Position numbers and translations under genes: made by a program. Below, one piece after another: positions 26,119 through 53,796 of a stretch of 64,000 nt of DNA. The DNA comes from Achromobacter seleniivolatilans (GTDB lineage: Bacteria > Pseudomonadota > Gammaproteobacteria > Burkholderiales > Burkholderiaceae_B). Numbering within the stretch: position 1 is the first letter of the stretch; each line of letters opens with the position of its first letter. The stretch spans positions 5,890,001 through 5,954,000 of the forward strand of contig NZ_CP132976.1 in the NCBI RefSeq assembly GCF_030864005.1, in the 5' to 3' direction. The notes under the pieces are model-generated. The model made no database searches, was not told the DNA's origin, and saw nothing but the letters and a program-made list of their open reading frames with translations.

Positions 26119-27762
<1,644 letters not shown>

Positions 27763-28232: not shown

Positions 28233-28277
28233 TGTCGAATTCCATCGAGTTTGGAATTTGTGTCATCCACTTTGAAA
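28233..28277 (+). repeat. Left end of the Tn7-like element with two TnsB-type boxes
   Basis: TGTCGAA terminus, box L1 CCATCGAGTTTGGAA (28242-28256) and box L2 GTCATCCACTTTGAAA (28262-28277). The boxes share the GTCATnnAnTTTGGAA pattern found in opposite orientation at the right end. Further left-end boxes were not clear. Confidence 0.8.
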
Positions 28278-28452
28278 CTTTCGGCACTGCCTTTGATGAG
28301 CGCAAACCACAGTAGCAGCGCCGTTGGCGTCTGTGATCCCCAATACAAATATGTATTAATTTAACGCAAGCTGTTGAAAAATAAGGACTTGTTGCGGAAA
28401 TTGAGCTGCTCGGGGTAGAGTTCAAATATCCCAAATCTGCACTTCTCAACCC

Positions 28453-28887
28453 ATGCGCTATGAGACCTTCGGATCGAAGCTTCGTCGGACGCGGGCCGCA
28501 CGAGGTCTGACCACAAAGCGGCTAGCTGAGCTAGCTGGCGTGACCCCGTCCTACCTAACACAGATACAGAAAGGCAATCGGGAGCCCCCGGATGACTTGG
28601 TAGCACGCTTGGCGCGGGTGCTGGCCTTGGAGAGCCAGGAGGCGTCAGAGCTGAGGCGTGTGCTCAAAAAGGAACGAATCCTCAGAGCGATTAACAAGTC
28701 TGGTACCGAGACGGCGGCGGCCACCCTCGCCGCCGAGATTCTGGAGACCGACGACGGCGTGTGCGCTGAGTCCGGGTACGAAGCACTGCGAGTAATTTGC
28801 TCGTCGTACTTAGCGTGGGCCCGCAGTTGCGCCGGTCGGCGCTCGCAGTCGCTAGCGATCTCAGATGACAGGAGAGCAGTCATGTAG
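28453..28887 (+). CDS. XRE-family helix-turn-helix regulator at the transposon left end
   Basis: 144 aa with a canonical Cro/CI-type HTH: FGSKLRRTRAARGLTTKRLAELAGVTPSYLTQIQKGNREPPDDLVARLARVL (about residues 6-57). The rest is an uncharacterised helical tail. It is the first gene inside the left end, upstream of and co-oriented with tnsA, so it may control the transposition genes (inference). No Shine-Dalgarno is obvious before the ATG. It could also be cargo. Confidence 0.75.
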   Translation: MRYETFGSKLRRTRAARGLTTKRLAELAGVTPSYLTQIQKGNREPPDDLVARLARVLALESQEASELRRVLKKERILRAINKSGTETAAATLAAEILETDDGVCAESGYEALRVICSSYLAWARSCAGRRSQSLAISDDRRAVM

Positions 28888-28894
28888 AAAAGAA

Positions 28895-28926
28895 AACGCC
28901 GATCAACTTTTACATTGACCGGCGTT
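28895..28926. promoter_or_regulatory. Inverted repeat between the HTH gene and tnsA
   Basis: AACGCCGATCAA / TTGACCGGCGTT, a 12-bp stem with one mismatch and an 8-nt loop, a few bases after the HTH stop. With no T-tract it may be an operator for the HTH protein or a weak terminator. Confidence 0.4.
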
Positions 28927-29051
28927 GTGCTTCGGTTCGGAAACCAAAGACTTCGACAATCCAAGTTTCCTTCCGCAGTGCAACCCAGTCAAGCAATTTT
29001 TCGATGAGCGACCGCTCGTCGGGGACAAGTGTTGCCTTCAGGAGGAAAAGC

Positions 29052-29711
29052 ATGCTGCTAGAACGCGGTAGGAAAGTGGTCACCCGATCACCACATCGTA
29101 GAGTGGGGTACATCTCTTGCCCATGGCTTCAAGAGGAGCAGGTGGAATATGAAAGCCTGCTGGAACTGAACTTTGCGCGTATTGCATTGCTCTGCCCTGG
29201 GTTAGTGTCGATTCGATCGCAGCCCTTTGTCATCGAATTGCCCGGTGGCGCTAAGTACACGCCCGACTTCCGCCTGGACTTCGCCAGCAAGCTTGCTGTC
29301 ATCGTCGAGGTGAAGCCGTCAAAGTTCGTTCGTCAGCATCAGGAAAAGTTGGACGCCGCGGCTGAACTGCTGCGAAGCCACGGATTCACTTACCTGATCG
29401 CGACCGAGGAGCAAATCTACAAAGACGGTCGCGATGCGAGGGCGTCCGTCTACATCCGCTACGCCAGGTCTCACTACGCCGACGATGTCGTGAGAGGTGC
29501 ATTGGTCAAACTCCAGGCGCAAGTTTCTCCTGGTTCGCTTGACAAGCTAGCCCAATGCGTCGGCTGCCCACGAGAGCTCGTCTTGCATCTGATTGGGGTT
29601 CGGCGATTGACGGTCGGTCCGTCGCTGCTGCCCGATCAGATCTCCTTTCCCTCTGATCTTGAGGAGCTTCGCAATGGCGACTTTTGCCCTGCAAGTTGGC
29701 TTAACAATTAG
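29052..29711 (+). CDS. tnsA: TnsA-like transposon endonuclease
   Basis: About 219 aa. A restriction-enzyme-like fold is read from VEYESLLELNF (Glu34), YTPDFRLDF (Asp72) and AVIVEVKPSKF (Glu86, Lys88), the acidic/EVK arrangement of TnsA. TnsA cleaves the 5' ends of the element and makes transposition cut-and-paste. AGGAGG at 29040-29045 places the start at 29052; the frame is open to ATG 29004. The C-terminal part (about 110-219) would contact TnsC by analogy with Tn7. It overlaps tnsB by 38 bp. Confidence 0.85.
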   Translation: MLLERGRKVVTRSPHRRVGYISCPWLQEEQVEYESLLELNFARIALLCPGLVSIRSQPFVIELPGGAKYTPDFRLDFASKLAVIVEVKPSKFVRQHQEKLDAAAELLRSHGFTYLIATEEQIYKDGRDARASVYIRYARSHYADDVVRGALVKLQAQVSPGSLDKLAQCVGCPRELVLHLIGVRRLTVGPSLLPDQISFPSDLEELRNGDFCPASWLNN

Positions 29712-31692
29712 GAAGGGCGGTCGGTGCTGGACGTTTGTTCGGGACTTGGGCGACAACACTATCCAGTTCGAGGACATTCATACCCGGGCTGTGACTACGT
29801 TCCAGGCGGCCGACCTCGTACGCGACATCATCGACGGCAAGTATGAGGTCTTGAGCCCCGCCCCATTTGCTCCAGCGCTCACGCACGCGCGCGCGTCAAC
29901 GGGGTCAGGTGACGCGCTGGCTTCGCTAATCGGTAGGTTGACCGGCAGGCAAGGCCGAGAGATAGAACGACGTGAAAGATACGTTCGGGCCGTCATAAAA
30001 CGCGGTATCAAGCCTGCAGCACGGTTGGAAATCTCGAGCGTAGTGGCGTCGGTGGTGCAGAGATTCCCAGACGAAAATCCACCCTCTGCTTCGACGGTGA
30101 TTCGTTGGCTGCGCTGCTTCAACAATTCCGAGGGGAACGTGCTGAGTCTTTTGTCTGGAAACGTTCGCCGAGCCAAAGCAATCCGATTGGGCGAGATTAC
30201 AAGAGAGATCGCATGGGAGGTGCTGCGTCAGAGCTATTTCGTCTTTCGCGGAAAGGGCGTGACGGCGGCGTATACGAGGTATCTGGCGAGACTCACGCAA
30301 ATTGAGCAGCAACGGGGGTGTCGCCAGATTGAGCCAATGAGTTTGTCGTCCTTTCGCCGGCTCGTTCAATCGGTGCCCCGGTACGAGGCAGACAGAGTTC
30401 GGATGGGTGCAACCGCAGCAAACAATAGGTGGCGTCACGCGGTTGGCGGAGTCTATGCCACGCGCCCGTTAGAGCGCGTGGAGATGGATCACACTCTCCT
30501 TGACCTCTACGTGATTGATGATAGGCGAGGCATTCCATTGGGACGGCCGACATTGACGCTGGTCATAGACTCATTCTCGAAGTACATCTTGTCGGTGTTC
30601 ATCAGCTTCGAGGGCGAGTCTCTTGGCAGGGTGTGCCAAAGCTTGAAGCTAGCTCTGAGACCGAAGGATGATCTTGTCCGCGCGGTAGGGGCAGAGCGCG
30701 AGTGGCTCACCCCAGGCCTGCCGGAAACTATCCTTGTGGACAATGGTCTGGCATTTCATTCACAGCAGTTTCGGCAAATTGCATGGGCATTGCGATGCGA
30801 TCTTGAATTCGCAGCAGTCAGAAAGCCGTGGTTCAAACCTAACGTCGAACGTGCGTTGGGGACGATGATGAACACGCTGCCCATCGAGGGAATGCCAGAG
30901 AAAATCCGCGGCCTCGCGAAAAGAACGGATCCAAAAATTACGGCCTGCGTCATGTTCTCCGATCTATGCCAATGTCTTGTTCGTTGGGCGGTCGACGTCT
31001 ATCCGATCGCAATACCAGAGCGTTCGTTGCTTAGGCCGTACGACACCCTGTCCGAATCGATGCAGACCATGCCACCACCGCAGTTCGCCGGCGGACTGGA
31101 GCAACTCGATCTGCTCACTGGTCTCTCTCGTAATCTCACGGTCGCACACCACGGGGTGGAAATGTTCCACATCAGCTACCGCAGTCCGGATCTCGCAGAA
31201 ATGGCGCGATCTCAGCGCACCCCAAGGTTCAAAACCGAAATCAAGTTTGATCCGAATGACCTTGGCAGCATCTGGGTAAGAAATCCCACCTCAAGAAGCT
31301 GGCTAAAGGTGCCCAGCATGATCCCCGACTATGCAGACGGCCTTACCCTCAGCCAGCACCGCCTAATTAGGCATTACGCAAAGGAAAAATTGCGGGGGGA
31401 GGGCGCATATGTCGAATGGCAAAGGGTGCAGCAGGAGTTTGAGGATATGGTGGATAACGCCGTTAAGCGTGGCAAGCGCTTGATTCGCGACATGCGCAAG
31501 TACGCGCTGCTTCAAGGCCTTTCTTCGGTGAAGCCTCTTGCGGAACAGAAGATGAATGCCTCGCCGCCGTCACAAGAGAAAGAGATTGCGCCTCAGATCT
31601 TCACCGACGAGGAAATAAGGGTACTTCCAGAGGAAATACCGATCTTCAAGGGTTTCATGCCAGATGAGTTCAACCTTGGGGGTGTCCGATGA
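29674..31692 (+). CDS. tnsB: TnsB-like DDE transposase (rve/Mu-type)
   Basis: About 672 aa. The retroviral-integrase core carries Asp272 (ERVEMDHTLLD), Asp356 (ETILVDNGLAF) and Glu392 (KPNVERALGTM), a DDE triad with the D-D/35-E type spacing. N-terminal HTH domains (about 90-240) should bind the repeated end boxes; a Mu-type C-terminal beta-barrel follows at about 500-570. GAGGAG at 29661-29666 supports ATG 29674. It joins DNA 3' ends to target, partnering TnsA and TnsC. Confidence 0.92.
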   Translation: MATFALQVGLTIRKGGRCWTFVRDLGDNTIQFEDIHTRAVTTFQAADLVRDIIDGKYEVLSPAPFAPALTHARASTGSGDALASLIGRLTGRQGREIERRERYVRAVIKRGIKPAARLEISSVVASVVQRFPDENPPSASTVIRWLRCFNNSEGNVLSLLSGNVRRAKAIRLGEITREIAWEVLRQSYFVFRGKGVTAAYTRYLARLTQIEQQRGCRQIEPMSLSSFRRLVQSVPRYEADRVRMGATAANNRWRHAVGGVYATRPLERVEMDHTLLDLYVIDDRRGIPLGRPTLTLVIDSFSKYILSVFISFEGESLGRVCQSLKLALRPKDDLVRAVGAEREWLTPGLPETILVDNGLAFHSQQFRQIAWALRCDLEFAAVRKPWFKPNVERALGTMMNTLPIEGMPEKIRGLAKRTDPKITACVMFSDLCQCLVRWAVDVYPIAIPERSLLRPYDTLSESMQTMPPPQFAGGLEQLDLLTGLSRNLTVAHHGVEMFHISYRSPDLAEMARSQRTPRFKTEIKFDPNDLGSIWVRNPTSRSWLKVPSMIPDYADGLTLSQHRLIRHYAKEKLRGEGAYVEWQRVQQEFEDMVDNAVKRGKRLIRDMRKYALLQGLSSVKPLAEQKMNASPPSQEKEIAPQIFTDEEIRVLPEEIPIFKGFMPDEFNLGGVR

Positions 31693-32576
31693 ATAGATAC
31701 GGAGCAGCCGCGATCAGTGCGAGCAAAGCATTTTCGGAAGTCATCATCCCCCATCCTGCTTTTGAGAACGTTTTGCAGTATGTGCTGAATGCGATCGAAA
31801 TTGGAAATCAGGTTGGCGTCTTCACCGGAGTGAGAGTGACCGCTCCATCAGGCGCAGGGAAAACGTTGTTGATGTCCCATCTAGCAGACATATTGCGCCA
31901 GGGGCTTAGTGACAGTAGCAACGTTCCGTTGATCAGCGCGAGCCTAAAAGAAGAGCCCTCTGTTTCCCAGCTCCAAACTGGATTGCTCAATAATTTTTCG
32001 TACGCCATGGCCAGTTCTATGCAGCGAGATAGAGGGCGCGCCAACAACAATGATGTCAACCAGATTCTTGTGAGCGCCATCAGGCACCAAGGTGTCAAGG
32101 TGATAGTGCTCGACGAGTTCCAGCATGTCTATCACACATCGGGCACAAAGGTCTTCACACCCATCATAGATTGGCTAAAGCGGCTCATCAACGCGACAGG
32201 GGTACCGGTGGTGTTGCTGGGCACCGAGATGATGGATAACTTGGGAACGATCGATCCCCAATTGACCTCAAGGATTCCGGTGGCAGTCAAGCTGGCGCAT
32301 TTTCGACTTGGGCCGGAGTGGCTCGGATTTCTGAAGGGCCTGGCAGACACCTGCAAGGCAACAGACCTTACTTCGTTGTACAAGAACAAAGAATGGGCAG
32401 GAGCAATTTTCCGGGTCACGTCGGGATCTCCTCGCCTGTTGAAATTGCTTCTTGTGCAAGCGATTCTCCTTGCTGTCGAGCGAGAAGAACTGAACTTGTC
32501 AGCGGGAATTTTGCGTCAAGCCTATTCGCTCCAGACGGGGGCTTCGGACGAGGAGAATCCTTTTGCTTCTCTTTGA
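31689..32576 (+). CDS. tnsC: TnsC/TniB-like AAA+ transposition regulator
   Basis: 295 aa. Walker A APSGAGKT (residues 52-59), Walker B VIVLDE (138-143), a sensor-like VVLLGTEMM and an arginine in QLTSRIPVAV. The protein is short like TniB and lacks the long N- and C-terminal extensions of Tn7 TnsC. Forms the ATP-dependent filament linking the target selector to the transposase. ATG overlaps the tnsB stop by four bases. Confidence 0.9.
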   Translation: MNRYGAAAISASKAFSEVIIPHPAFENVLQYVLNAIEIGNQVGVFTGVRVTAPSGAGKTLLMSHLADILRQGLSDSSNVPLISASLKEEPSVSQLQTGLLNNFSYAMASSMQRDRGRANNNDVNQILVSAIRHQGVKVIVLDEFQHVYHTSGTKVFTPIIDWLKRLINATGVPVVLLGTEMMDNLGTIDPQLTSRIPVAVKLAHFRLGPEWLGFLKGLADTCKATDLTSLYKNKEWAGAIFRVTSGSPRLLKLLLVQAILLAVEREELNLSAGILRQAYSLQTGASDEENPFASL

Positions 32577-33525
32577 CCACATACTTGGCCGGCCTTTGCC
32601 TGTCCAAGACGAAATAGGCGACAACGAGTCTGGCAACGGATATGCCCTACGAATGCTGATAGTGAACGGATTGCAGTTCTCTGATTTGGCGAGGGCTGCC
32701 GCTTCCGTTGGTCACACCTATATGCCGGCTACTGCGGCGCCTTATTTGTCCTATGCGTTCGGAGCGTCACTGAGTCGGCTTCAAAGGGCGATCCCCAGAA
32801 GCTATTCGTTGAAAGGACGGCGCAGATCGGCCTTCCTTGGGTACGACTTCAGTCGGACCTATCAATTGCGCTACACGCGGCCTCAGGTGTGCCCCTCGTG
32901 CCTGGCAAGGCCTGATGCCCGGCTACAAGCTATCTGGGAGATTTCCCTCTATACATCATGCGTTGAGCACGAGTGCCTGCTGCTCGATCTGTGTGTCTGC
33001 GGCAGGGGCATTTCGTGGAGGAGGGCAGGCCCATTTGAATGCTCATGCGGCGCGGATCTGCGAGCGCTATGTTGTGAAAGTGCAGGTTCCGGCTCTCTAG
33101 CGATTTCAACCTTGATTGCGGCGCGTGTCATGCGCGGATTGCCTGAGCAAAAGAGCGCTGGTCGGCGAGGGCTTCTGCACGCACTGAGTTTGGACACATT
33201 ACTTCGACTTGTGAGGGCACTGGGGATCTCTGAGAACGCATCAGGCGATGATCTTGTACCAGGGCGATTGACGCGCCTTTTGAGCTCTTCCGAGGCGGTT
33301 TGCGTGGTGCGAAGGGCGTGGGACCGTCTCGCCGATAACAATGCACTCGTCTTCACTCAGCTTCCACCAGCATGGCAGTTAGAAGAGCTGTTCGGAGGTG
33401 CGAATTCAAGCGATCTGCGGGTGTTGCAGGCGTTGCTTGGCGAAGAGGAGCCGACGGTTAGTCGTTGGCTCAAGCAGCATCGGTGGGTTCAATTGGAACT
33501 GCTCGAGAGAGACGTTAATGGTTGA
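32563..33525 (+). CDS. tniQ: TniQ/TnsD-family target-selection protein (first copy)
   Basis: 320 aa. An N-terminal TniQ domain (to about residue 150) with zinc-binding cysteine pairs: QVCPSCLARPD (Cys110, Cys113), SCVEHECLL, and later CVCGRG and CSCGADL. The start is a TTG at 32563 with GAGGAG about eight bases upstream, overlapping tnsC by 14 bp. The C-terminal half lacks an obvious long DNA-binding TnsD extension. TniQ proteins recruit TnsC to the insertion site. Confidence 0.85.
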   Translation: MLLFDHILGRPLPVQDEIGDNESGNGYALRMLIVNGLQFSDLARAAASVGHTYMPATAAPYLSYAFGASLSRLQRAIPRSYSLKGRRRSAFLGYDFSRTYQLRYTRPQVCPSCLARPDARLQAIWEISLYTSCVEHECLLLDLCVCGRGISWRRAGPFECSCGADLRALCCESAGSGSLAISTLIAARVMRGLPEQKSAGRRGLLHALSLDTLLRLVRALGISENASGDDLVPGRLTRLLSSSEAVCVVRRAWDRLADNNALVFTQLPPAWQLEELFGGANSSDLRVLQALLGEEEPTVSRWLKQHRWVQLELLERDVNG

Positions 33526-34408
33526 GCGAATCCCTTCACTGTTGTTCTTGCCGCAGCCACAATTGTATGAATCGACCTCTTCATGGCTGGCGAGGGTTGC
33601 GTGCATGCATGGAGCGCCAGTATCGAAAATTCTTGATAACCTTGACTTGTCGCGCAATCGAGATTGGGACATAGGCATCGGCTCAAGGGGCGCCGCGCGG
33701 TTGGCGCAAGGCACCAACTTGCCGCCGGCAACGCTTCAAGGCTTTGTCTCGCGCTTTGACGCCTTTCGGCGGAATCGCTGGCTTAGGAGATGGTTGCGTT
33801 TGAGTGAGCAGGGGACTGCCCGCAGCGGATTCTGCCCCAATTGCTTGCGCCAAGATGTGGTGCCATTCCTTCGATTTGAATGGCGAATGCGCTATTGGAT
33901 TATTTGTCCAACGCACGGAAACCGTATCCTCACTATTTGCCCGGCGTGTCAGTTCAGCGACCCTGTCGCTGTGGATGATCAACACAGTGCGGTTCCTTTT
34001 GCGGGGTGCGGAAAGTGTGGTGCTGACCTCCGCTTTGTGGGGCTCGCGGCGTTGAAATGCGATACGGCAGCGCAACTCGCGCAGCTGCAAGTGGCTGTGA
34101 CGGCCGCGATCTTGCAAGAGGGGTTTTCCTTGGTGGGGATTGAGGAGAGGATCCCACTCGCAATGCTCCCCAGCCTGTTGGCGGCAGGGATTGAACCTAG
34201 GGATCGAAATGAGAGCCAGTCCTTGAGTCGTGTTGATCCTCGACTCCTGGACGACGTTAGACGAAGCATCGGCCAGGTGAATGCGCTTGGCAGGCTTTAC
34301 GCCTCCGCAGGCTTTACGCCTCCGCAGACGTTGTGGCCTCCCGTGGCAATACGCGGGGACGGCGTGTTTGGAAGGGAGATATCGGAAGACTGTGCGAGAT
34401 TGCGTTGA
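33518..34408 (+). CDS. TniQ/TnsD-family protein (second copy), C-terminus altered by a 17-bp duplication
   Basis: About 296 aa. Begins MVERIPSLLFLPQPQLYESTSSWLARVA, typical for TniQ, and has zinc-type pairs SGFCPNCLRQD, ICPTHGNRILTICPACQF and GCGKCGADL. It overlaps the first tniQ by 8 bp. A tandem 17-bp duplication at 34291-34324 shifts the frame near residue 265. Removing one copy restores a frame running to a TAG at 34465-34467, with a plausible tail (ALKQRFRWPLAVVELDAHL). The current protein therefore ends in about 35 shifted residues and may be impaired. Confidence 0.82.
   Translation: MVERIPSLLFLPQPQLYESTSSWLARVACMHGAPVSKILDNLDLSRNRDWDIGIGSRGAARLAQGTNLPPATLQGFVSRFDAFRRNRWLRRWLRLSEQGTARSGFCPNCLRQDVVPFLRFEWRMRYWIICPTHGNRILTICPACQFSDPVAVDDQHSAVPFAGCGKCGADLRFVGLAALKCDTAAQLAQLQVAVTAAILQEGFSLVGIEERIPLAMLPSLLAAGIEPRDRNESQSLSRVDPRLLDDVRRSIGQVNALGRLYASAGFTPPQTLWPPVAIRGDGVFGREISEDCARLR
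34291..34324 (+). repeat. 17-bp tandem duplication in the second tniQ gene
   Basis: CAGGCTTTACGCCTCCG occurs twice in succession (34291-34307 and 34308-34324). A length of 17 is not a multiple of three, so it changes the downstream reading frame. See the second tniQ entry. Confidence 0.92.
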
Positions 34409-34875: not shown

Positions 34876-34935
34876 ATTCAACGGCCTAGTTGAGCCGCGC
34901 GGAGAAGCGGCGTCGGTTTGAATGAGTTGTTAGGT
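34876..34935 (-). repeat. Integron-type attC recombination site (aadA-like)
   Basis: Read on the minus strand, R'' ACCTAAC (34935-34929) and R' GTTGAAT (34882-34876) fit RYYYAAC and GTTRRRY. Between them are CATTCAAACCGACGCCGCTTC and a complementary GCGCGGCTCAAC arm. The 60-bp site closely resembles the attC of aadA cassettes as remembered. The stop codon of the adjacent minus-strand gene lies inside R'', as is usual in gene cassettes. Confidence 0.7.
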
Positions 34936-36346: not shown

Positions 36347-36351
36347 GCCTT

Positions 36352-36404
36352 CTAACGCAAAGGTAACCGGAGCGTTGCGGCGGATGGACGCAGAGCGATT
36401 AGGT
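36352..36404 (-). repeat. Possible second attC boundary (weak)
   Basis: On the minus strand GCGTTAGAA at 36360-36352 resembles an R' core, and ACCTAAT (36404-36398) a degenerate R''. It lies between the abi-like gene and the start codon of the decayed cassette gene, where a cassette junction is expected. The internal arms do not pair well, so the call is tentative. Confidence 0.3.
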
Positions 36405-36452: not shown

Positions 36453-37190
36453 TTATGGTGAGACCAGCTCATTGGCTTCAGCTTCCGGGACTTCGGGCGG
36501 ATTCTCGACCAGGTTCCCCTTGTTCAGATGCTCGAATGGCTTTGCTTCTGGGTCAGTCAGGATGGCATCCCAATTTCCCCGATTGAGTCCTTCCACGTTC
36601 AGCCACAGTAAGACAACTTCGTACTGAGATAGCTGCGATTTGATAAGGTCGTAATAGCGCTTTTGCTGTGCCGCTGTAGCCTCTATCTCGGCGCTTTGAT
36701 CCTTCACATGTTTAAACAAGTGATAGACGGTCCTGAAGTAGTGTTCGATCTCCCACCCGTCAGTTTCCAAGAAACGCTGATATGCGGTAGCCAGCGGGAC
36801 TCGGTTTTTCTGCGAAAGGGCAACGATCTTCCGATAAAAAATGCGGAAGCAATCACGGCCGTGCATGATGGTCTTGTCTTTCATCTTACGGTCGATAGAC
36901 TGCAGAACAGAGGCATGAAGCGAAAGCAGCGTGAAGAACTGGTGCTCGAATGCTTGAAGCTTTGCTGCTTGGGTTTGACTACGCAAAGTTGCTGCGACGA
37001 GTACGACAGAAATGAGACCAAATAATGGATTGAGCAGTCCGCCCATGTAGTCACCGAACTGCCCCCATTCAGCGGCAGCGCTAGAGACGTCTGCCTTCCT
37101 GAAGTTCAGGGCAAATGCCCCCAGCAGAGCTCCGATAGCGGCGACTCCGAATCGAAATGGATGGCGAACGAGCATGTCGGCGAGCTTCAT
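36453..37190 (-). CDS. Putative phage abortive infection protein (AbiC-like)
   Basis: About 245 aa. Two N-terminal membrane helices (about residues 13-31 and 48-68) flank the characteristic WGQFGDYMGGLLNPLFGLIS motif. A helical cytoplasmic part follows (FEHQFFTLLSLHASVLQSID ... RYYDLIKSQLSQYEVVLLWL). This layout fits the putative AbiC family (phage abortive infection). The frame is open to a GTG at 37262; ATG 37190 (MKLADMLVRHPF) is preferred for the membrane topology, but no ribosome site settles it. It is upstream of, and co-oriented with, the attC-bounded cassette. Defence role is inferred from family and location. Confidence 0.75.
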   Translation of the reverse strand: MKLADMLVRHPFRFGVAAIGALLGAFALNFRKADVSSAAAEWGQFGDYMGGLLNPLFGLISVVLVAATLRSQTQAAKLQAFEHQFFTLLSLHASVLQSIDRKMKDKTIMHGRDCFRIFYRKIVALSQKNRVPLATAYQRFLETDGWEIEHYFRTVYHLFKHVKDQSAEIEATAAQQKRYYDLIKSQLSQYEVVLLWLNVEGLNRGNWDAILTDPEAKPFEHLNKGNLVENPPEVPEAEANELVSP

Positions 37191-37819
37191 AAGCAGGAGG
37201 AGTGAAAATTTCCGGTAAAGAATTGTGCGGTCCAACGTAATGTAGATCGCATCAACTTGCACACCGGATCTGGTGCTTGCGGTCTAAATTCGCTGAAAAA
37301 GAGTACGAAAAAGGATTTGTAGCCTAGCTTCTCGGTAGGCATTCTGTATGAAAACACAGTGGTAAATTCACCCGTCCGAGTTGCGCACCACGGCTGCTGG
37401 CGTAGGTCCGCGAACGAATTTGTTACGAATAGTATACGGCCAATCTGCAATGAGGTGCATGTGTCTGTGAAATGGCACGGCCTGCGGCATCCGCGAGCCA
37501 TGAGGCGGGAAAGAATCGAACCGAATAGCGGTTTTGATATTTTTGACTGGAAGGCCGTTTCGGGTTGAAAGCGGAATAAGAAAAAAGGCTGGAGTTTGCT
37601 GGATTGATGGGCATCAAATGGCATTAATCAGCGCAAACAGCTAATTATCCTTATCGAAATCTGAAGGTTTTCGCTATAGACCCGGATTTCCAGCTAACGC
37701 GCTTGAGGGACTACCTTGCGAAGTCAGGCTCTATTCTGTTTGGGATGGTTACTGTCTGAAATGAGTCAAGGTATGATGGCTTTTTAGAGAGGAGTGCTGG
37801 TGCCAGCTTGCAATTCTGA
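37191..37819. other. Intergenic region between the abi-like gene and the Druantia-like operon
   Basis: About 630 bp, AT-richer than the surroundings. One minus-strand open frame (37187-37624) lacks family features or plausible composition and is not called. The region should hold the divergent promoters for the abi-like gene (-) and the helicase-system operon (+). No palindrome or strong promoter stands out. Confidence 0.4.
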
Positions 37820-45500: not shown

Positions 45501-48401
45501 GACGACGTGATCTTCGCAAATACATTCTTCGCGTTGGAGGAGACCGGCCTGGGCTACCCGAGTCTGGCCGGCACTGCTCATGACGACGAGAACAAGATGG
45601 ACGCTTGGCTGCGCGTATTCGCCGGCGCATACCGCGTGCGTAATAACCGCTTCTTTAATGAAGACGAAGTGAAGGAGTGGGCAAATGGTGCCGACATCCC
45701 GCGGACGAGCCGGGTCAGGAAAATCGCCGACAAGGCGTACGCCGGAGGGGACGTCACCGCGAGACTGACCGACGTCATTGGGCGTTTCTCCGACATGGGC
45801 CATAGAGGTGGAATGTTCGACATTGCAAACTTGTACTTGAGGGTTGCCGAGAAGGACGACCGCTATTGGCGTTGCCGCAACTGCGAACGTGTTCATCTGC
45901 ACTCTGGTTTGGGGCTATGTACCCGTTGTGGAGAGATGTTGGACAAGGATTCCAGCGGCGCTGTCGAGGAGCTATGGCACGGCAACTTCCTCGGCAAGCG
46001 TATCGTGCGCGGGGCGGCCGACGGCGTCTCTCGCTTCCGTTTACGCGTCGAGGAGTTGACAGGACAGACTGACGACTTCGCCGATAGGCTTCGTAAGTTC
46101 AAAGGCATTTTTGTCAATGGCGAGAGCGAGACCGAACAACGCGCGAGCCAGATCGACATGTTGTCGGTGACGACGACGATGGAGGTTGGGATCGACATTG
46201 GGGCGCTGCAGAGCGTGTATCAGGCGAACATGCCCCCTCAGAGGTTTAACTACCAGCAGCGTGTTGGCCGTGCTGGACGCAGAGGACAAGCGTTCTCATT
46301 CGTAGCGACTTTCTGCCGCGGGCGGTCGCATGACGCGTACTACTTCGCGCACCCCGGAGCTATCACGGGAGATGCTCCGCCTCCACCATTTCTCGCGGTG
46401 GAGCACGACCCAATTCCGATGCGCCTAGTGCGCAAGTGCTGGCTACGTGCCGCCTTCCAGAGGCTGCGCGACGAGTGCTACGCGAGTGGACAGAAATACC
46501 CGGGCGATTTGCTGGTGCCGCCCGACGTGCACGGGGAGTATGTCACAACGCAGGACTATTACCACAACGATGGTGCCGGGTGGCGGGCACGACTCAAGGT
46601 TGCGCTGGAAGCAACCGTCCATGAGCGAGATCGCTTCGTAGACATGGCGGTCAAGGGAGAACAACGGGATAGGCTGCTTGCTGGCTCCACATCCGACAAG
46701 CTAATGGCCGAAATTCAGGCGCTTCACGGGCATGCACCCGATGCGCAAATTGGGATGGCAAGGTTCCTCGCTGAGTGGGGAATGTTGCCGATGTACGGAA
46801 TGCCAACTCGAGTAAGAAACCTCTACCTTGGGACACGAGAAGCAAGTGGCGAGAAGGGCGAGTACACGTGGTCAACCATGGATCGAGATCTAGACATGGC
46901 TGTGTTTGAGTTTTCGCCTGGCAATGTGCTAGTCAAGGACAAAGAGCGACATCGAGTAGTGGGTTTTACCGGTAACTTAAGCGATCCAATACGAACCACC
47001 GGTGGATGGAAGGCCCAGGTAGTGTCTGGGTGGCGGGAGACACATTCCTACGTCGCGCTTTGCGCGGCCTGCGGCTCAGCAAAGTTCCAGGAAGAGCTCC
47101 CGGCCGATGGCTCGCTTTGCGAGGATTGCAAAAAACCTATCTCCGTAGACTCGTTTAACCCTTATGTAACGCCGGTCGCGTTCCGCACAGACTTCACCCC
47201 GTCCTCAGGGGAAGAGGAAATCGCGCGGATGTCCCAGAGGACAGTGGCCACCGTGCTGGAGGTGGGGGTGCCTGTTGAGCAAGGCAACATGATAGTGCGG
47301 AGTGGCGCCGGCGCAATAATTCTGCAGCTAAACGACGGCCCCCCCGACAACGAGGGCAATGGGTCGCTATTCGTGATGGACGAAGCTATGGATGCGCGAG
47401 CTCCTCTGGGTGCAACGGGTAAATACCTGTCTCGGATTAGCGACCAAGCTATCGAAGCCAGCGTACGACAAAAAAATTCTTACCGCTGGCCTGTGGACGC
47501 CAATGGATCGAGCGGACAGAGATTCGGGTTAGTGTCCCGAAAAAAGACCGACGCAGTCTACCTAGAGTTGCAGCAATTTGACTCTCGCCTCACGCTTGAT
47601 AGAGTTGCGCGCAAGGGCGAATTTAGCGATATTGCTACCCGAGCAGCGGCGGTAAGCGCCACACAGATCTTGGTGCAACGCGCGGCGCTTGAGCTCGACG
47701 TGTCTGCCGAGGAGTTTGAGGCATTAGAACCGCGGTTGCGCGACGGCAGGCCGATGCTGCAGATTGCCGACGCGTTGATCAACGGCTCGGGACTGTGCCG
47801 AAGGCTCGGCGAACCCAACATCCCCGGCGGTCCGTCGTACATCAGCGAAATTGTTGGAGCAATCCTATCGCGCACGGACCAATGGCCTCTCGCGGATTTT
47901 CTTGCATCTTACGGCGATGGGGGATCTCACCAGGGACAATGCAAGACGTCCTGCTATCGGTGCATACAACGTTTCAGCAACCGTGCCTATCACGGTCTAC
48001 TCGACTGGCGTCTTGGGCTCTCTTATCTAAGGGCACTGACTGACCCAGAGTATGCTTGCGGGCTGAATCCCGGCGATGAAAATCTGCCTGAGTTGACAGG
48101 CTGGCTCGAGCGTGCTCGCACGCTCGCCGAGGACATCGTGTCCATGCGCCCCAGCTCGCTAAGTCACGAGCAGCTCGCGCATTCAGGGCTGCCGTGCATC
48201 ATCGAACGTTCTAGTGGAGAGGCATGGCGTTACATTGTGCTGCACCCGCTTTGGCGAAAAGATCCAGAAACATTAGGCGGAATTTTGGGGCCGGACTTTG
48301 TCCCGGGGATGCTTGCGGTCGACACCTATAATCTTGAGCGGCGACCGCTGCAAGTTCTAGCTCGCCTACGCCATGAACGTGGCTCTGGGCGCTCGAACTA
48401 G
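42534..48401 (+). CDS. druE: Giant superfamily-2 helicase with C-terminal DUF1998 region (DruE-like)
   Basis: About 1955 aa. SF2 motifs: Q-like YRHQVQML, Walker A SGTGSGKT (133-140), motif Ia LVLYPMNALVEDQ, ILITNASML, DELH box (362-365) and LASSASMP (III). Motifs V-VI lie in VTTTMEVGIDIGALQSVYQA and YQQRVGRAGRRGQAFS. Zinc-type Cys clusters occur in YCEACGD, CCPKCG, CRNC...CTRCG and CAACG. The end carries CKTSCYRCIQRFSNRAYHG, a DUF1998 signature. Size and architecture match DruE, the shared subunit of Druantia. ATG 42534 (MLDPIGGFGRIKDFF) is preferred; GTG 42507 with GGAGGG upstream is an alternative. Confidence 0.82.
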   Translation: MLDPIGGFGRIKDFFISYVETSFRISDPTVAEARRSLLEAPGTFTTEPFLEPVLRYESSDTTIEELAMLENGPLELLSPEGRRAFAELALSGLFEGRSVDGKIRRRSEYPPYRHQVQMLNRGLRPGNPAIVTSGTGSGKTESFMLPMLAAISDEAVKWPQPNSNYLDGQWWRKNETDWRAMRTGEQRPAAVRALVLYPMNALVEDQMVRLRKTLDSDEARAVMDERFLGNRVFFGQYTSAVPVTGHQKHPRLADDPDEKKRRKRRLEKLRIALRRSDENQTAAREHDAQKDPPEKTRFIFPSMDGGEMLSRWDMQDAPPDILITNASMLGAMLSREVEDPIFRRTREWLTDNDDAYFYLVFDELHLVRGSAGTEVAFLTKSLIDRLGLADPKHRHKLRILASSASMPMEGQDGQRSRQYLRDMFAPYGTSTGPGDLGTDSAEYWSECVIKGVPNIPAWEHGPIDPVPFESLLKAALDSRDDFVPQVKRSAALMAAVDAAAAALAVGGDTEEDRVRNLAEAAAAALTDACRDGEGVRATAVSDLGARIFREGATDVMAALRGLTLARALPESKVWNARVESTTPAFRLHTFIRNIEGLFGAPRPTLGGATFDNLTTERGLSHAPSADGEKRGRRLFELLYCEACGDLLIGGQRGERKLNSSSTEMLPSSGNLENLPERAASEYYDQMTFEEFAVFWPRRRQPMLPDRDYDQWQLAHLDPHSGVVACGSDIPDGHVGGYLYFQNDEAVSGKGTRAKDGPKRSKTAQPFCCPKCGIDYSRRPASNRLRSPIRAFRTGVSKASQLVATELFELLHAIGAEPKGICFSDSRQDAANQALAIETMHLRDLRREVLVAAARARIETRQKEWLSEDEFNEMVGRLSQDRKTAELTNLVQRYTAQRAGGSVQSGDRKVALRELLQDADGGGRVGDLVSEFVKMGIHPFDPSGRATFEGSPWHALFEQSSNSVEYAGTLNGADKASLTATILRQQYELIDDVIFANTFFALEETGLGYPSLAGTAHDDENKMDAWLRVFAGAYRVRNNRFFNEDEVKEWANGADIPRTSRVRKIADKAYAGGDVTARLTDVIGRFSDMGHRGGMFDIANLYLRVAEKDDRYWRCRNCERVHLHSGLGLCTRCGEMLDKDSSGAVEELWHGNFLGKRIVRGAADGVSRFRLRVEELTGQTDDFADRLRKFKGIFVNGESETEQRASQIDMLSVTTTMEVGIDIGALQSVYQANMPPQRFNYQQRVGRAGRRGQAFSFVATFCRGRSHDAYYFAHPGAITGDAPPPPFLAVEHDPIPMRLVRKCWLRAAFQRLRDECYASGQKYPGDLLVPPDVHGEYVTTQDYYHNDGAGWRARLKVALEATVHERDRFVDMAVKGEQRDRLLAGSTSDKLMAEIQALHGHAPDAQIGMARFLAEWGMLPMYGMPTRVRNLYLGTREASGEKGEYTWSTMDRDLDMAVFEFSPGNVLVKDKERHRVVGFTGNLSDPIRTTGGWKAQVVSGWRETHSYVALCAACGSAKFQEELPADGSLCEDCKKPISVDSFNPYVTPVAFRTDFTPSSGEEEIARMSQRTVATVLEVGVPVEQGNMIVRSGAGAIILQLNDGPPDNEGNGSLFVMDEAMDARAPLGATGKYLSRISDQAIEASVRQKNSYRWPVDANGSSGQRFGLVSRKKTDAVYLELQQFDSRLTLDRVARKGEFSDIATRAAAVSATQILVQRAALELDVSAEEFEALEPRLRDGRPMLQIADALINGSGLCRRLGEPNIPGGPSYISEIVGAILSRTDQWPLADFLASYGDGGSHQGQCKTSCYRCIQRFSNRAYHGLLDWRLGLSYLRALTDPEYACGLNPGDENLPELTGWLERARTLAEDIVSMRPSSLSHEQLAHSGLPCIIERSSGEAWRYIVLHPLWRKDPETLGGILGPDFVPGMLAVDTYNLERRPLQVLARLRHERGSGRSN

Positions 48402-48437
48402 CAGCATTAATCTAAATGGACGGAAGTTAAATATCTA

Positions 48438-49586
48438 ATGAGGGCCCTCTATGAGTTTTTTTCTGGTGGCGGGATGGTACGCGCTGCAATGCGCGACGAA
48501 TGGAACTGTTTGTTCGCCAACGATATAAGTGAAAAGAAAGCGGCCGCCTATACAGCCAACTGGGGGGGCGAGCACCTTAAAATCAAGAACATTACCGACA
48601 TCAAACCAATTGACCTGCCTGGGCGAGCCGATTTGGCATGGGCATCTTTTCCGTGCCAGGATTTGTCCTTGGCAGGGAATGGTGTCGGGTTAAATGGAGA
48701 GCGAAGCGGCACTTTTTGGGCATTTTGGAAGTTAATGATGGCCCTAAAAAAAGAGGGGCGAAATCCATCTTTAATTGCTTTGGAAAATGTCTATGGCACA
48801 CTTACTAGTCATGATGGTAAAGACTTTGAGTCAATCGTAAGAGCTATTGTGGCCGGGGGCTATCGACTAGGTGCGATGGTGATCGATGCGGCGCGCTTTT
48901 TACCACAATCTCGACCTCGTCTTTTTATTGTGGCCGTTAACGCCAATGTCGCTGTACCCGAGCAGTTGCTTGCCAGTGGCCCATCGAAAACTTGGCATCC
49001 GTCAGGGCTTGTTCATGCGTTTGAGAGCATGCCGAAGAGACTACAGTCACGCTGGATTTGGTGGGATCTACCTTTGCCTGTGGATAAACCCAAGGAGCTG
49101 AAAGATCTTATCGAAGACAACCCCAAGGATGTGCAATGGCATACCAAGGAGGAAACGAAACGGTTGTGCAGCATGATGACCCCAATCAACCGGCTAAAGG
49201 TGGATAGGGCGATCGAGCAGGCAAGCCAAACTGGCGAGCAAGTGGTGGGAACTATTTATCGGCGAATGCGCCAAGGACTCCAAAGAGCAGAGGCGCGCTT
49301 TGATGGTGTCTCGGGCTGTTTGCGCACTCCATCGGGCGGCTCGAGTCTGCAAACCATCATTGTGATAAACCAAAAAATTGTCCGCTCTCGCCTATTGTCT
49401 CGTAGAGAGGCGGCGCGCCTGATGGGTTTGGATGACGATTACAAGCTCCCCGAAAGGTACAGCGAAGCCTATCATCTCACGGGCGATGGCGTGGCAGTAC
49501 CAGTTGTCAATCACCTTGCGCAGCACATTTTTAATCCTATCATCGACACAATCAAGGCGATTGAATTAGCTGACGAGGCTGCTTAA
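48438..49586 (+). CDS. DNA (cytosine-5) methyltransferase (DruM-like)
   Basis: 382 aa. C5-MTase motifs in order: I FFSGGGM (7-13), IV ASFPCQDLS (catalytic Cys73), VI ALENV (115-118), VIII QSRPRLFIV, IX LSRREAARLMG, X GDGVAVPVVNHLAQ. A variable target-recognition region lies between VIII and IX. Next to the DruE-like helicase it fits DruM, which would mark self DNA. It is visibly richer in A and T than the helicase gene, suggesting a different origin. The following vsr gene is a usual companion of 5-methylcytosine systems. Confidence 0.9.
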   Translation: MRALYEFFSGGGMVRAAMRDEWNCLFANDISEKKAAAYTANWGGEHLKIKNITDIKPIDLPGRADLAWASFPCQDLSLAGNGVGLNGERSGTFWAFWKLMMALKKEGRNPSLIALENVYGTLTSHDGKDFESIVRAIVAGGYRLGAMVIDAARFLPQSRPRLFIVAVNANVAVPEQLLASGPSKTWHPSGLVHAFESMPKRLQSRWIWWDLPLPVDKPKELKDLIEDNPKDVQWHTKEETKRLCSMMTPINRLKVDRAIEQASQTGEQVVGTIYRRMRQGLQRAEARFDGVSGCLRTPSGGSSLQTIIVINQKIVRSRLLSRREAARLMGLDDDYKLPERYSEAYHLTGDGVAVPVVNHLAQHIFNPIIDTIKAIELADEAA

Positions 49587-49634
49587 CAGTAGAACTTATT
49601 TTGCATCAGCTATACGAAATCGATAGGCCCCCTT

Positions 49635-50048
49635 ATGCCGACTATCGAGCGATCTGCGATCATGCGAGCAGTAAAGAGTCGAGGCAATGCGTCGACCGAA
49701 GGGCGGATGGTGAGCATTTTGCGCGGCGCGCGTCTGACTGGATGGCGCCGGCACTTGCAGATCGTCGGCACGCCCGACTTTGTTTTTCCCGCAGCACGTG
49801 TTGCTGTGATGGTTCACGGTTGTTTTTGGCATGGCTGTCCTAGGCATTACCGTAGTCCGTGCGATAATTCAGTGTATTGGTCGGCCAAAATTGCACGCAA
49901 TATCGCGCGCGATAAGTTAACACGGGCTAGATTGAGGCGGGACGGTTGGGCTGTGTTGACATTCTGGGAGCATGATCTTAAACGAGAAGACGTCGTAGTC
50001 CGACGCCTTCGCAGGGCCTTGGGGCGTGGGGTTACCAAGACTTTATAG
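49635..50048 (+). CDS. vsr: Very short patch repair endonuclease (Vsr)
   Basis: 137 aa. Vsr signatures: RSAIMRAVKSRGNASTEGR at the N-terminus, GTPDFVFPAARVAVMVHGCFWHGCP with the catalytic Asp48 and zinc/active-site His and Cys residues, and NIARDKLTRARLRRDGWAVLTFWEHDL. Vsr nicks at T:G mismatches produced by deamination of 5-methylcytosine. Its place 48 bp after the methyltransferase indicates it protects the methylated sites of this system from mutation. Confidence 0.93.
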   Translation: MPTIERSAIMRAVKSRGNASTEGRMVSILRGARLTGWRRHLQIVGTPDFVFPAARVAVMVHGCFWHGCPRHYRSPCDNSVYWSAKIARNIARDKLTRARLRRDGWAVLTFWEHDLKREDVVVRRLRRALGRGVTKTL

Positions 50049-50486: not shown

Positions 50487-51218
50487 ATGGACCAGTTCAC
50501 GGACTTTGCTGACAGTCGCCTCATTGATGGTTGCATCTATTGTGGCGGGTTCCCTGACACCCGCGATCATGTGCCGTCGCGATCATTGCTCGACGCGCCG
50601 CTACCCGAAAACCTCCCCGTTGTAGGGGCGTGCAGAAAATGCAACAACGCCTTTTCCTCAGATGAGGAGTATTTTGTATGTCTACTTGAAACCGTTCTTC
50701 GAGGATCGACCGATTCAGTGCAGCGGCCATTGGTGGGCCGTATCTTCCGGCGAAGTCCTGCATTGCGAGCCAAAATTCAAGCCGCCCGGCAGGAGCGAGA
50801 TGGTCAAGTCATCTTTGCGATTGAAGCGGATCGAGTCAAAGTCGTCCTTCTGAAGCTTGCCCGCGGCCATGCTGCGTATGAACTCAGCTCAGTGTGCCGC
50901 GGGGAGCCAACAGTCTTTTCCTGGGGACCGCTTGCCTTGCTATCGGAGGAACAACGCGAGTTTATTGAGGATGTTCACGTGCCAGAGCTGTACCCGGAGA
51001 TTGGATCACGTGCTATGCAGCGCATGGTCGTCGCTCAATTTACGTGCGCCGGACTAGACGGGACGGAACGGCAGAATAACGCGCTCCTTATCCATGACTG
51101 GTTAGAAGTTCAGAAAGGGCGATATAGATATATAGCGTACGAAGACTATTCCGGTGTTCAGGTGAAGATCGTGATCGACGAATACCTTTATTGCTATGCA
51201 AGCTGGGGGGAAGCGTGA
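50487..51218 (+). CDS. HNH-endonuclease-like protein
   Basis: 243 aa. CIYCGG (Cys16, Cys19), DTRDHVPSRSLL (Asp-His) and GACRKCNNAFSSDEEYF (Cys49, Cys52, paired Asn) form the treble-clef HNH-type zinc site. The remainder (about 75-243) has no recognised domain. Its 3' end overlaps the truncated istA on the opposite strand by 25 bp, so an insertion may have cut or set its C-terminus. Probably cargo of the defence island; a nuclease role in defence is inference. Confidence 0.7.
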   Translation: MDQFTDFADSRLIDGCIYCGGFPDTRDHVPSRSLLDAPLPENLPVVGACRKCNNAFSSDEEYFVCLLETVLRGSTDSVQRPLVGRIFRRSPALRAKIQAARQERDGQVIFAIEADRVKVVLLKLARGHAAYELSSVCRGEPTVFSWGPLALLSEEQREFIEDVHVPELYPEIGSRAMQRMVVAQFTCAGLDGTERQNNALLIHDWLEVQKGRYRYIAYEDYSGVQVKIVIDEYLYCYASWGEA

Positions 51219-51805: not shown

Positions 51806-51886
51806 AAGGCCGCCATCATTGCCCAGGTGGGTCAGATTTACTCCGGCGCGGTGGGTCAGTATGATCCTAACCCAGTTTTTAGTACC

Positions 51887-53103
51887 TGTGGATTCAGATG
51901 GTCAGTGCAACGCCCTATTGAAAGCCTGATGGATAGAGGTGTGCAATGGTCAGCATTTACGGTGCCATGACTACGGAGAGGAAGTCTAGGATTTGGGAGC
52001 TATGGTGCAAGGGGACCCCGATGAGCTCCATTGCGCGCGACATATCTAAGCCTCCTGCGACTGTCTTTTCATATCTCCTGTACCACGGAGGCATCTCGCC
52101 TAGGACCAGGACGCGCCGTGCCAAATGCCTGTCAGCAGAAGAGCGCGAGTCGATCTCTCGAGGGTTGGCCAGTGGCGCAAGTTATCGAGCTATTGGTCGC
52201 CAGTTGGGCCGCTCAGCATCGACGATCTCGAGAGAGGTCGGCCGCAATGGCGGACCAGAGGAGTACCGAGCGTACGATGCTGAAAAGCAGTTCTTGAAGC
52301 GTGGTCTGCGACCGAAGCCTTACCTGCTGTCCAGTGAACCGGAGCTGCGCGGTATCGTGATACGCCTGTTGGAGGCTGACTGGTCGCCAGAACAGATTTC
52401 AGGATGGCTGAAGCGTCACTCTCCTGACGGAAAGATCATGTGTGTTTCGCACGAAACAATCTATCGATCGCTGTTTGTTCAAGCCTGCGGCGTACTGCGT
52501 GAAGAACTAAAAAAGCACCTACGGACTCAGCGAATGTTCCGCCATGCCAGACCCCATCGGGCGGCCATTTCAGGCGGCATTCCCGACTGCATCTCAATTC
52601 GTTCTCGTCCTGCGGAGATCGAAGACCGCGCATTGCCAGGGCATTGGGAAGGCGATCTTATTTCGGGAGCAAATCAGAGCGCCATTGCCACGATCGTCGA
52701 CAGAAGCACGCGGTTCACCGTGCTTTGCAGGATCGAAGACAAGCGGGCCGAAACCGTCACTCGAGAACTTGTTGAGCAGATGCGCCAGCTTCCTGCTCAA
52801 CTAAGGAAAAGCCTAACCTGGGACCGCGGGGTTGAGTTGTCAGCGCACAGGCACTTTAGTATTGCCACCAATATGGTCGTTTACTTCTGCGATCCGGGCA
52901 GCCCCTGGCAGCGAGGCACCAACGAAAATACGAATGGCCTGCTACGCCAGTACTTCCCAAAAAGAACAGGCTTGGCAAACTATACGCAGTGCGAGCTTGA
53001 TGCAGTTGCCGCTAAGCTAAACTCCCGGCCCAGAAAAACGTTGGGATTCAAGACCCCGGCTGAAGCGCTGGACGCAATGTTGCACTGACCGTCTGAATCC
53101 ACA
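51887..53103 (+). mobile_element. Insertion sequence of the IS30 family, 1217 bp
   Basis: Terminal inverted repeats match at 23 of 24 positions: TGTGGATTCAGATGGTCAGT at 51887 on the left, with the right copy (53080-53103) reading TGTGGATTCAGACGGTCAGT on the minus strand. It encloses one complete transposase. Flanks are CC/AC, so a target duplication is not evident. It abuts the IS21 left-end remnant. Confidence 0.88.
51946..53088 (+). CDS. IS30-family transposase
   Basis: 380 aa. Two N-terminal HTH regions (TTERKSRIWELWCKGTPMSS and ESISRGLASGASYRAIGRQLGRSASTISREVGRNG). The DDE integrase core has GHWEGDLISG (first Asp), SLTWDRGVELSAH (second Asp) and GTNENTNGLLRQYFPK (Glu), all typical for IS30. 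Intact, so probably active. The start is MVSIYGAM; the in-frame ATG at 51967 is an alternative. Confidence 0.92.
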   Translation: MVSIYGAMTTERKSRIWELWCKGTPMSSIARDISKPPATVFSYLLYHGGISPRTRTRRAKCLSAEERESISRGLASGASYRAIGRQLGRSASTISREVGRNGGPEEYRAYDAEKQFLKRGLRPKPYLLSSEPELRGIVIRLLEADWSPEQISGWLKRHSPDGKIMCVSHETIYRSLFVQACGVLREELKKHLRTQRMFRHARPHRAAISGGIPDCISIRSRPAEIEDRALPGHWEGDLISGANQSAIATIVDRSTRFTVLCRIEDKRAETVTRELVEQMRQLPAQLRKSLTWDRGVELSAHRHFSIATNMVVYFCDPGSPWQRGTNENTNGLLRQYFPKRTGLANYTQCELDAVAAKLNSRPRKTLGFKTPAEALDAMLH

Positions 53104-53123
53104 ACAACGCTTTTGCGGGGGGA

Positions 53124-53387
53124 TTACCGGTCGACTAGGGCCGAAAGGGCCGAAAGGGCCCTTTTTGCGTCTTCAAGGCTCCGTTCTGCTACGTACTCTT
53201 CGGCGCGGACACTTTCCATATGACTGTCCCACATGGCTTCTTGTCTCATACTCCCATCTCGGCGAGTGACGTTTGTTTCCGCCACAGACAAGCTTTTCTG
53301 CCTGGCGGAATCATAGGCGGCTTGTGCGGCTACCACTCGCGCCCGTGCCGTTTCAAGGGTCAGTTTCGATTCGTCTCCCACGATCAC
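53124..53387 (-). CDS. Small alpha-helical protein of unknown function
   Basis: 87 aa, highly charged and helical (ETARARVVAAQAAYDSARQK, SLEDAKRALSALSALVDR), probably a coiled coil. The 3' end contains the tandem GGGCCGAAA units that read SALSAL. It lies between the IS30 copy and the right end of the transposon; no partner gene is adjacent. Could be cargo or a remnant of a larger helical protein. Confidence 0.5.
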   Translation of the reverse strand: MIVGDESKLTLETARARVVAAQAAYDSARQKSLSVAETNVTRRDGSMRQEAMWDSHMESVRAEEYVAERSLEDAKRALSALSALVDR

Positions 53388-53664
53388 TCCTAGTATTGAG
53401 AAAACCTCATGTTAACGGACAAACATTTTTGCCATCGCGATTTCCGTTGAACGGCGCGCTTTTAGGGGGAAAATTTATTAGATGCGCGAGCTCAGTCTCA
53501 CCAACTGGCAGCGAATGGCTGTCGAATTTCATCTAACTTTAAATCTCTCTACCAGTTGGTCTGTCCATCCCGGACACTGCGCTAAGTTTTTCTTCCGCTA
53601 CCGCACCAGATAAGAGTTATCGCATGGCCCAACAGTCCGGCGCCAGCGACGGTGAATAGTGGAG
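53388..53664. other. Non-coding DNA before the right-end boxes
   Basis: 277 bp without a supported gene, moderately AT-rich. It leads into the array of end boxes beginning at 53665. Confidence 0.4.
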
Positions 53665-53796
53665 TTCCAAACTGAATGACGTTTTCTCGGAAGAATTCCA
53701 AACTCAATGACACTTTGGTTCCAAATTAAATGGCTGAGATCGGGTAAGTTGTTGATTAGTAAAAGATCTGAATTCCATGCTCGCTGAACTTCGACA
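53665..53796 (-). repeat. Right end of the Tn7-like element with four TnsB-type boxes
   Basis: Inverted relative to the left end: boxes TTCCAAACTGAATGAC (53665-53680), TTCCAAACTCAATGAC (53696-53711), TTCCAAATTAAATGG (53719-53733) and a terminal box within 53770-53788, closing with TTCGACA (53790-53796). More boxes than at the left end, and closer together, as in Tn7. Confidence 0.8.

Follow-up and report, generated by a model that had tools for sequence, protein, structure and literature searches.

Why do transposon ends recur, in one orientation, at the upstream edge of the chaperone operon groESL in Achromobacter? The question is raised by 64,000 nucleotides of the chromosome of Achromobacter seleniivolatilans (NZ_CP132976.1, positions 5,890,001 to 5,954,000; this whole stretch is called the window, and coordinates refer to it), in which an element here designated E1 lies beside groESL at 28233-53796. 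Judged from its proteins and from relatives that have the same termini, E1 is a Tn7-like element with defense cargo, as the original prediction had stated. From the sequence comparisons below, it is quite likely that E1 is an autonomous transposon and that it was inserted, guided by TniQ, at an attachment site at groESL that also gathers elements without a transposase.

Transposition genes of E1

The transposition genes of E1, all on the + strand, are arranged as a gene for a helix-turn-helix regulator (28453..28887; HTH_31) followed by tnsA-tnsB-tnsC-tniQ-tniQ. A similar reading frame ahead of tnsA was seen by eye in Trinickia and B. stagnalis. The TnsA endonuclease (29004..29711) matched PF08722 with 33.2 bits (cutoff, 26.5) and was 77% identical to its counterpart in another Achromobacter genome, G009; it had no credible match among solved structures. 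The DDE transposase TnsB (29674..31692, in an open reading frame [ORF] that opens at 29659; 82-83% identity to G009) scored above the cutoff for Mu-transpos_C and below it for rve. Residues D272, D356, and E392, which from their motif context we take to be the catalytic triad, were invariant in an alignment of six sequences. The best solved match of this protein was TnsB of Tn6677 (1e-49), and TnsB of Tn7 matched more weakly (4.3e-11). The AAA+ ATPase TnsC/TniB (31689..32576) matched PF05621 (9.6e-17) and TnsC of Tn6677 (4.4e-13). Two proteins matched PF06527, TniQ 1 (32563..33525; 1.1e-12; 60% identity to G009) and TniQ 2 (33518..34408; 6.2e-18; 48% identity to G009 over 212 residues). The reading frame of TniQ 2 opens at 33398, with an ATG at 33518 that overlaps the end of the TniQ 1 gene, and the protein weakly matched the solved TniQ 7u5d (0.00089).

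E1 thus encodes TnsA, a DDE TnsB, an AAA+ TnsC, and, with the two PF06527 matches, a target selector of the TniQ/TnsD family, and the predicted set of transposition proteins was confirmed by Pfam with the single reservation of the rve score. No Cas effector, which would mark a CRISPR-associated transposon, was found among the main ORFs of E1 that were scanned, a search that left out short ORFs and repeat arrays; the cargo helicase DruE2 gave only weak matches to the Cas3d helicase.

Ends of E1 and a sister element

E1 opens with TGTCGAA (28233-28239), 149 bp from the start of groES, and closes with TTCGACA (53790-53796). The left end (28233..28278, + strand) has two + boxes, at 28241 and 28262, spaced 21 bp, and the same layout is found in the left end of the G009 element, which has a target site duplication (TSD). 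The right end (53664..53796, - strand) has three good boxes (53664, 53695, and 53718) and a weak fourth (53772), all in the - orientation. Inverted arrays of TnsB-type boxes, to which TnsB is predicted to bind, are therefore present at both ends, and the termini with oppositely oriented boxes that had been predicted hold. The pattern GTCATCNANTTTGGAA (≤3 mismatches), which was derived from the same boxes that it then scored, matched 10 times in the window, 7 times at the described ends; shuffled windows gave 3.95 ± 1.83 matches, and 0 of 100 shuffles reached 10. Rfam had no match in the window at the gathering level.

The sister element in G009 is 40,390 bp long and has the same termini, a perfect TSD (ATTGT/ATTGT), and the same tns operon. 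Identity to E1 was 85% over 47 bp at the left end, 74% over 93 bp in the right-end region, and 77% over 4.6 kb of the tns operon. Its cargo is different; the ten ORFs scanned included NicO-type and MFS transporters, an RND efflux set, a chromate transporter, a histidine kinase, and an IS66 transposase. Absence of the termini from related elements had been named beforehand as grounds for rejecting the prediction, and this sister has them. Among 28 left/right combinations of ends, counted by hand, exact 5-bp pairs occurred twice (in G009 and G030, another Achromobacter genome), compared with 0.03 expected by chance.

Recurrent ends upstream of groESL

The genes to the left of E1 are groEL (26119-27759) and groES (27797-28084), both on the - strand and identified by Pfam (Cpn60_TCP1 and Cpn10). 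The region between groES and E1 (28085..28232), the proposed attachment site, contains the inverted repeat TTAGCACTC-N9-GAGTGCTAA and a promoter on the - strand, which we assume to be a CIRCE-type repeat and a sigma32-like promoter, followed by a conserved block that ends in TTACAT (28216-28221) and a variable spacer. Matches to this region (E ≤0.001) were found in 200 of 268 genomes of the family, many of them to the repeat/promoter part only. Comparison with relatives at the same site had been proposed as a check on the boundaries, and on the left it was informative: homology to the right of groES ended at 28220-28226 in 13 of 18 fetched relatives, and in the other five (G005, G036, G022, G009, and G017) it extended to 28238-28279, continuing into an end, or what remains of one, that these genomes have themselves. 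In the 36 genus genomes that were read (one across only 65 nt), the block up to TTACAT was followed by a short variable spacer and then, in many, by ends or remnants.

The recurrence of ends was scored with a box matrix built solely from the ten boxes of this genome in 39 of the 42 other Achromobacter genomes, G012 (where the contig ends) and G033 and G035 (for which no locus was available) being left out. A left-type end lay ≤150 bp from TTACAT in 22 of the 39 genomes and on the opposite strand in none (0/39); without G061 and G066, which had been chosen by an end search, the count was 20 of 37. In a control of 20,400 random 150-bp windows, 25 had a left-type end; the windows came from 17 of the same islands, and ends are present in these islands too.

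Adjacency of tns genes to groESL was observed in three genera of two families. In G358, which belongs to another family (TnsB, 35-37% identity), an element of 19,648 bp lies beside groES with CTAAT on both sides (in the joined stretch, its left end is at 32354 and its right end at 52001), so that 5-bp TSDs are present in three related elements, those of G009, G030, and G358. In G073, from another genus of the same family as Achromobacter (TnsB, 35%), tnsA lies 2.2 kb from groES. Left-type ends beside groES were also found in G112 and G104, from a further genus. Taken together, these patterns in the genomes strongly suggest that a targeting system repeatedly directs elements to the region upstream of groESL. 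Elsewhere, TnsB relatives labeled Achromobacter in the protein database had 57% and 41-42% identity, the best TnsB match in a plasmid collection was 38.6%, and three scans of viral contigs yielded no relative. Left of the tns operon of the Trinickia relative (L090:254-3915), a UvrD-like helicase lies beside an OLD-TOPRIM ATPase, a Gabija-like pair.

Elements without transposase genes

A second left end, different from that of E1 and designated type B, starts at 53835, 38 bp past the right end of E1 (53835..53998, + strand; matches in genus genomes), and opens a segment that runs past the window. End-like sites were found at 53520 (weak) and 53835 (+) in the window and, beyond it, at 72625 (-), 72864 (-), 72874 (+), and 78331 (-). 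Because of the left end at 53835 and the further ends outside the window, E1 is the first element of an array, and the sites suggest two more segments, E2 (53835-72864) and E3 (72874-78331). The only TnsB match (E ≤0.001) and the only two TniQ matches in this genome lie within E1; E2 and E3 are therefore without TnsB or TniQ. Across the 63 kb that surrounds the array (27,001-89,999), pairing left with right ends gave no case of ≥4 of 5 identical flanking bases, so the borders of E2 and E3 are provisional. An inverted left-type end lies at 72625, inside the right edge of E2, with an IstB-like piece nearby (L010:2130-2705).

A right border of the array was sought in a GGDEF gene at about 79.7 kb, which matches G017 11 kb from groES. 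This candidate was rejected because its strong matches in G036, G022, G005, G016, and G029 are remote from groES or on different contigs, and no core right flank was fixed. Nor did a common gene to the right of groES serve; the widest cluster, a TctC-type receptor by one of its members, comprised 12 genomes at varying distances.

Transposition genes of this kind are rare in the genus. This TnsB (E ≤1e-30) was found in 2 of 43 Achromobacter genomes, and TniQ was found in 5 of the 43; of these five, only this genome (G000) and G009 have it beside groES. With the Tns proteins of the window and of 13 further loci, tblastn detected nothing in the first 20 kb to the right of groES in 17 relatives. 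For G009 the search covered 60 kb and located the tns genes 33-38 kb to the right of groES. Of the 43 genomes, 18 had matches to type B ends, several of which were short and partial, and 16 had ends of a type designated C, for which a control with the reversed pattern gave 0. The plasmid collection had no type B end. A transposase that drives type B or C ends was not found, and a box scan at three loci away from groES found a single match above 14, in G029, with G020 and G014 giving none.

It is possible that such elements are decayed autonomous elements that have lost their tns genes rather than elements moved in trans. Deletion is common in islands, and some of the ends are truncated stubs. 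However, the element of G030 (11,317 bp) has both ends, a perfect TSD (TCTGT), no tns match, and defense genes of full-looking length, with matches to HerA, DUF4297, OloA, and OloB that amount to two defense systems by their PADLOC names. It sits inside the left end of another element, and when its flanks are joined without the second TSD copy, 74 of 81 positions agree with the uninterrupted end of G017 and 70 of 81 with that of G009. Moreover, about 150 bp is common to type B left ends, yet among 16 compared stretches the most widespread protein cluster reached only 6, and it overlaps the end itself. We therefore regard decay as a rather unlikely account of these elements and mobilization in trans as the preferred one.

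Several further ends were noted. In G017 (L066:527-2908) two left ends lie 14 bp apart, and the outer one is flanked by GTAGG, as is the right end at 2908. Away from groES, almost identical sequences flank the type B ends of G014, G016, and G035, which suggests that a mobile element common to these genomes carries them. This genome, of 6.86 Mb in two contigs, has part of a type B left end (76% over 90 bp) on its second, plasmid-like contig (C2:132512-132602), a stretch of which had three matches in the plasmid collection, all of them Achromobacter. The type C ends of G020 and G021 (L206 and L218), at 19 and 25 kb from groES, are preceded by almost identical sequence, possibly a second site.

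Target recognition and the borders of E1

Another possibility is that targeting reads the coding sequence of groES, as TnsD reads glmS, and that the promoter lies in between by chance. TnsD of Tn7 is reported to bind where the coding sequence of glmS ends (PMC2918618), and groES is strongly conserved. However, the distance from the left end to the groES start differs between E1 (149 bp) and the G358 element (178 bp), as measured by hand, whereas both left ends lie 65 bp from the repeat, a comparison of two elements only. Targeting of the coding sequence thus seems unlikely to us.

A number of observations weigh against a groESL site read at its regulatory region. No end was detected by the criterion used in 17 of the 39 genus genomes, and the distance from the left end to the repeat, determined in 21 of 36 genomes, ranged from 63 to 118 bp with no fixed value. 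TTACAT was not found beside groES in G358 and is therefore no general requirement. Some type B and C ends lie away from groES. Among the relatives, the right end of the G358 element was sought by its terminus plus the expected duplication, with the adjoining inverted box as a separate match; TnsB of G073 reads in two pieces; the tns genes of G069 are at a contig end, away from the groES contig, and hence unplaced; no groES was present within 60 kb in G479 (TnsB, 34%); and none was present in the 5-22 kb of the 13 named loci, including B. stagnalis and Trinickia (TnsB, 37-38%). In E1 itself the flanks, GCGGG on the left and AGGGG on the right, agree at 3 of 5 bases, which is no evidence of a TSD.

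Loss of the TSD in a single copy leaves the assignment of E1 to the Tn7-like elements standing. Because an exact TSD is absent, the right border rests on homology, namely to the right-end region of the G009 element (72% identity from 53665), which has a perfect TSD; and because another end starts 38 bp further on, the right junction cannot be read from a simple empty site. Of the two predicted boundaries, then, the left is supported by the point near which the match of relatives stops, and the right by the G009 homology only. The absence of an exact TSD, the different left end at 53835, and groESL as the left neighbor were not part of the original prediction. That the left end at 28233 and the right end at 53796 stem from separate insertions, joined by recombination between similar ends, would fit the missing TSD, the stacked and repetitive ends at the locus, and the outer stub in G017 whose GTAGG flank is that of the right end past a nested left end, but is similarly improbable against the agreement of E1 with G009 at the left end, the right-end region, and the tns operon.

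Proposed mechanism

By analogy with the known Tn7 pathway, TnsB would bind the boxes and termini, TnsA and TnsB would excise the element, and TnsC would connect the transpososome to the TniQ target selector. Insertion would produce a 5-bp duplication and place the left end facing groES. The attachment site would be the groESL regulatory region, with insertion about 63 bp or more past the CIRCE-type repeat, on its far side, and because insertion falls beyond the repeat, the groESL promoter and genes would stay intact. Either TniQ protein may be the one that reads the site, and promoter or CIRCE DNA may be the feature recognized. At such a recurrent landing place, incoming elements would settle beside earlier residents or interrupt their ends, with stacked remnants as the outcome. 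In many residents, ends of the same kind occur without detectable tns genes, and these elements were probably moved in trans, perhaps by TnsABC.

Cargo of E1, E2, and E3

The cargo of E1 includes a complete Druantia type II system on the + strand, consisting of DruF2 (37820..40414; PADLOC, 2.4e-289), DruG2 (40442..42541; 1.7e-224), the helicase DruE2 (42507..48401; E = 0, 2432.9 bits), and the cytosine-5 methyltransferase DruM2 (48438..49586; 6.8e-168; PF00145). Druantia type II is defined by druM, druF, druG, and druE, the models named in PADLOC, and all four are present together. A gene for a Vsr-type endonuclease (49635..50048, +; PF03852, 2.3e-14) adjoins the system. A putAbiC-domain protein (36453..37262, -; PF16872, 37.7 bits; cutoff, 22) is a candidate abortive-infection protein, for which PADLOC gave a weak AbiP match only. 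An HNH-looking protein (50487..51218, +), with a CxxC...DHxP...CxxCN motif by eye, had no match in PADLOC, Pfam, or NCBIfam. An attC-like foldback (34876..34935, +) with RYYYAAC/GTTRRRY cores and a hairpin (-20.7 kcal/mol for a 70-nt piece, without a shuffle control) may be the remnant of an integron cassette, and an IS30-family transposase gene (51946..53088, +; NF033563, 7.7e-83) lies inside the element. The original description of the cargo as a multisystem defense island is partly supported. Druantia, Vsr, and the putAbiC-domain gene were recovered; the AbiC-like assignment is a domain match, the cassette DNA amounts to one attC-like foldback, and the HNH gene belongs to no family.

E2 carries, at 57552-61774 and from 62037 onward into L009 and L010, ORFs with RHS repeats and a set resembling type II secretion or pilus systems (GspK-like, below the cutoff; T2SSE; T2SSF; PilN; T2SSM; and secretin), an unusual cargo for a transposon. 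In E3, an ORF (L010:4209-6775, about 74.2-76.8 kb) with BlaR1-like M56 and D-Ala-D-Ala carboxypeptidase matches overlaps an ORF with a transpeptidase domain, and the pair is possibly related to the cell wall or to beta-lactams.

Relation to known elements and significance

E1 resembles Tn7- and Tn6677-type elements in having TnsABC and TniQ, inverted box arrays, and one orientation beside a conserved gene, and its sisters have 5-bp TSDs. It differs from them in having no Cas genes among the ORFs tested and in having two short TniQ proteins. Its TnsC matches the TniB family, a likeness to Tn5053/Tn402 (TniABQ); Tn5053 is not known to have a tnsA gene, and E1 has one. The Tn7-type sites named in the accessible text of PMC10293859 and PMC11406308 are glmS, tRNA genes, parE, guaC, yciA, ffs, rsmJ, and comM; the site of E1 is not a gene end, a tRNA gene, or another of these but lies upstream of a promoter.

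Judged from the portions available, several aspects of the locus have precedents. CMGI-E of the related betaproteobacterium Cupriavidus metallidurans CH34 is, like E1, a Tn7-like island with tnsABC and two tnsD-type genes away from attTn7 (PMC3384475); compared by description, its cargo is different and its site is not given as groESL. BCEGI-1 of Bacillus cereus ATCC 10987 resembles the E1 array in holding tandem Tn7 elements in one island at the same site, but each of these elements carries tnsABCD, and the island lies after glmS (PMC2359905). Two adjacent tniQ-family genes as in E1 are also found in the dual tniQ-tnsD loci of Faure 2023, where 1,048 tandem loci were counted (PMC10293859). 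Benler 2021 described defense-carrying Tn7-like transposons with boundaries, as in E1, from arrays of TnsB sites (PMC8649781); because that scan was centered on tnsB, it would miss elements without a transposase. The Tn7-like class, tandem Tn7-like elements (PMC2359905), and two-tnsD elements off attTn7 in Burkholderiales (PMC3384475) are thus already known.

What is new is the target, which lies at the edge of the regulatory region of groESL, past the CIRCE-type repeat. The term groE was not found in the main texts of PMC10293859, PMC8649781, PMC11406308, PMC2359905, and PMC3384475, nor were groL, chaperon, and heat shock in the first of these or Druantia in the second. Tn7-like, groES, and TniQ occur together only in PMC11915867, where, in the parts accessible, groESL is mentioned in a different connection. 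A groESL attachment site for Tn7-like elements was not found in the open-license literature searched, a scope outside which most subscription papers fall, and a site at the upstream edge of the promoter of an essential chaperone operon was not met in the sources as far as they were available.

Because ends were present at the site in 22 of 39 genomes and this TnsB was present in 2 of 43, our results suggest that many Tn7-type islands can escape surveys in which tnsB is the starting point. We propose, tentatively and with more doubt than confidence, that a Tn7-like lineage homes to the sigma32/CIRCE groESL promoter by protein recognition and that the site may hold a genus-wide pool of transposase-free, trans-mobilized, mutually replacing defense and resistance cassettes in which past insertions can still be read. 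The groESL upstream site would then be a marked place to look for defense systems.

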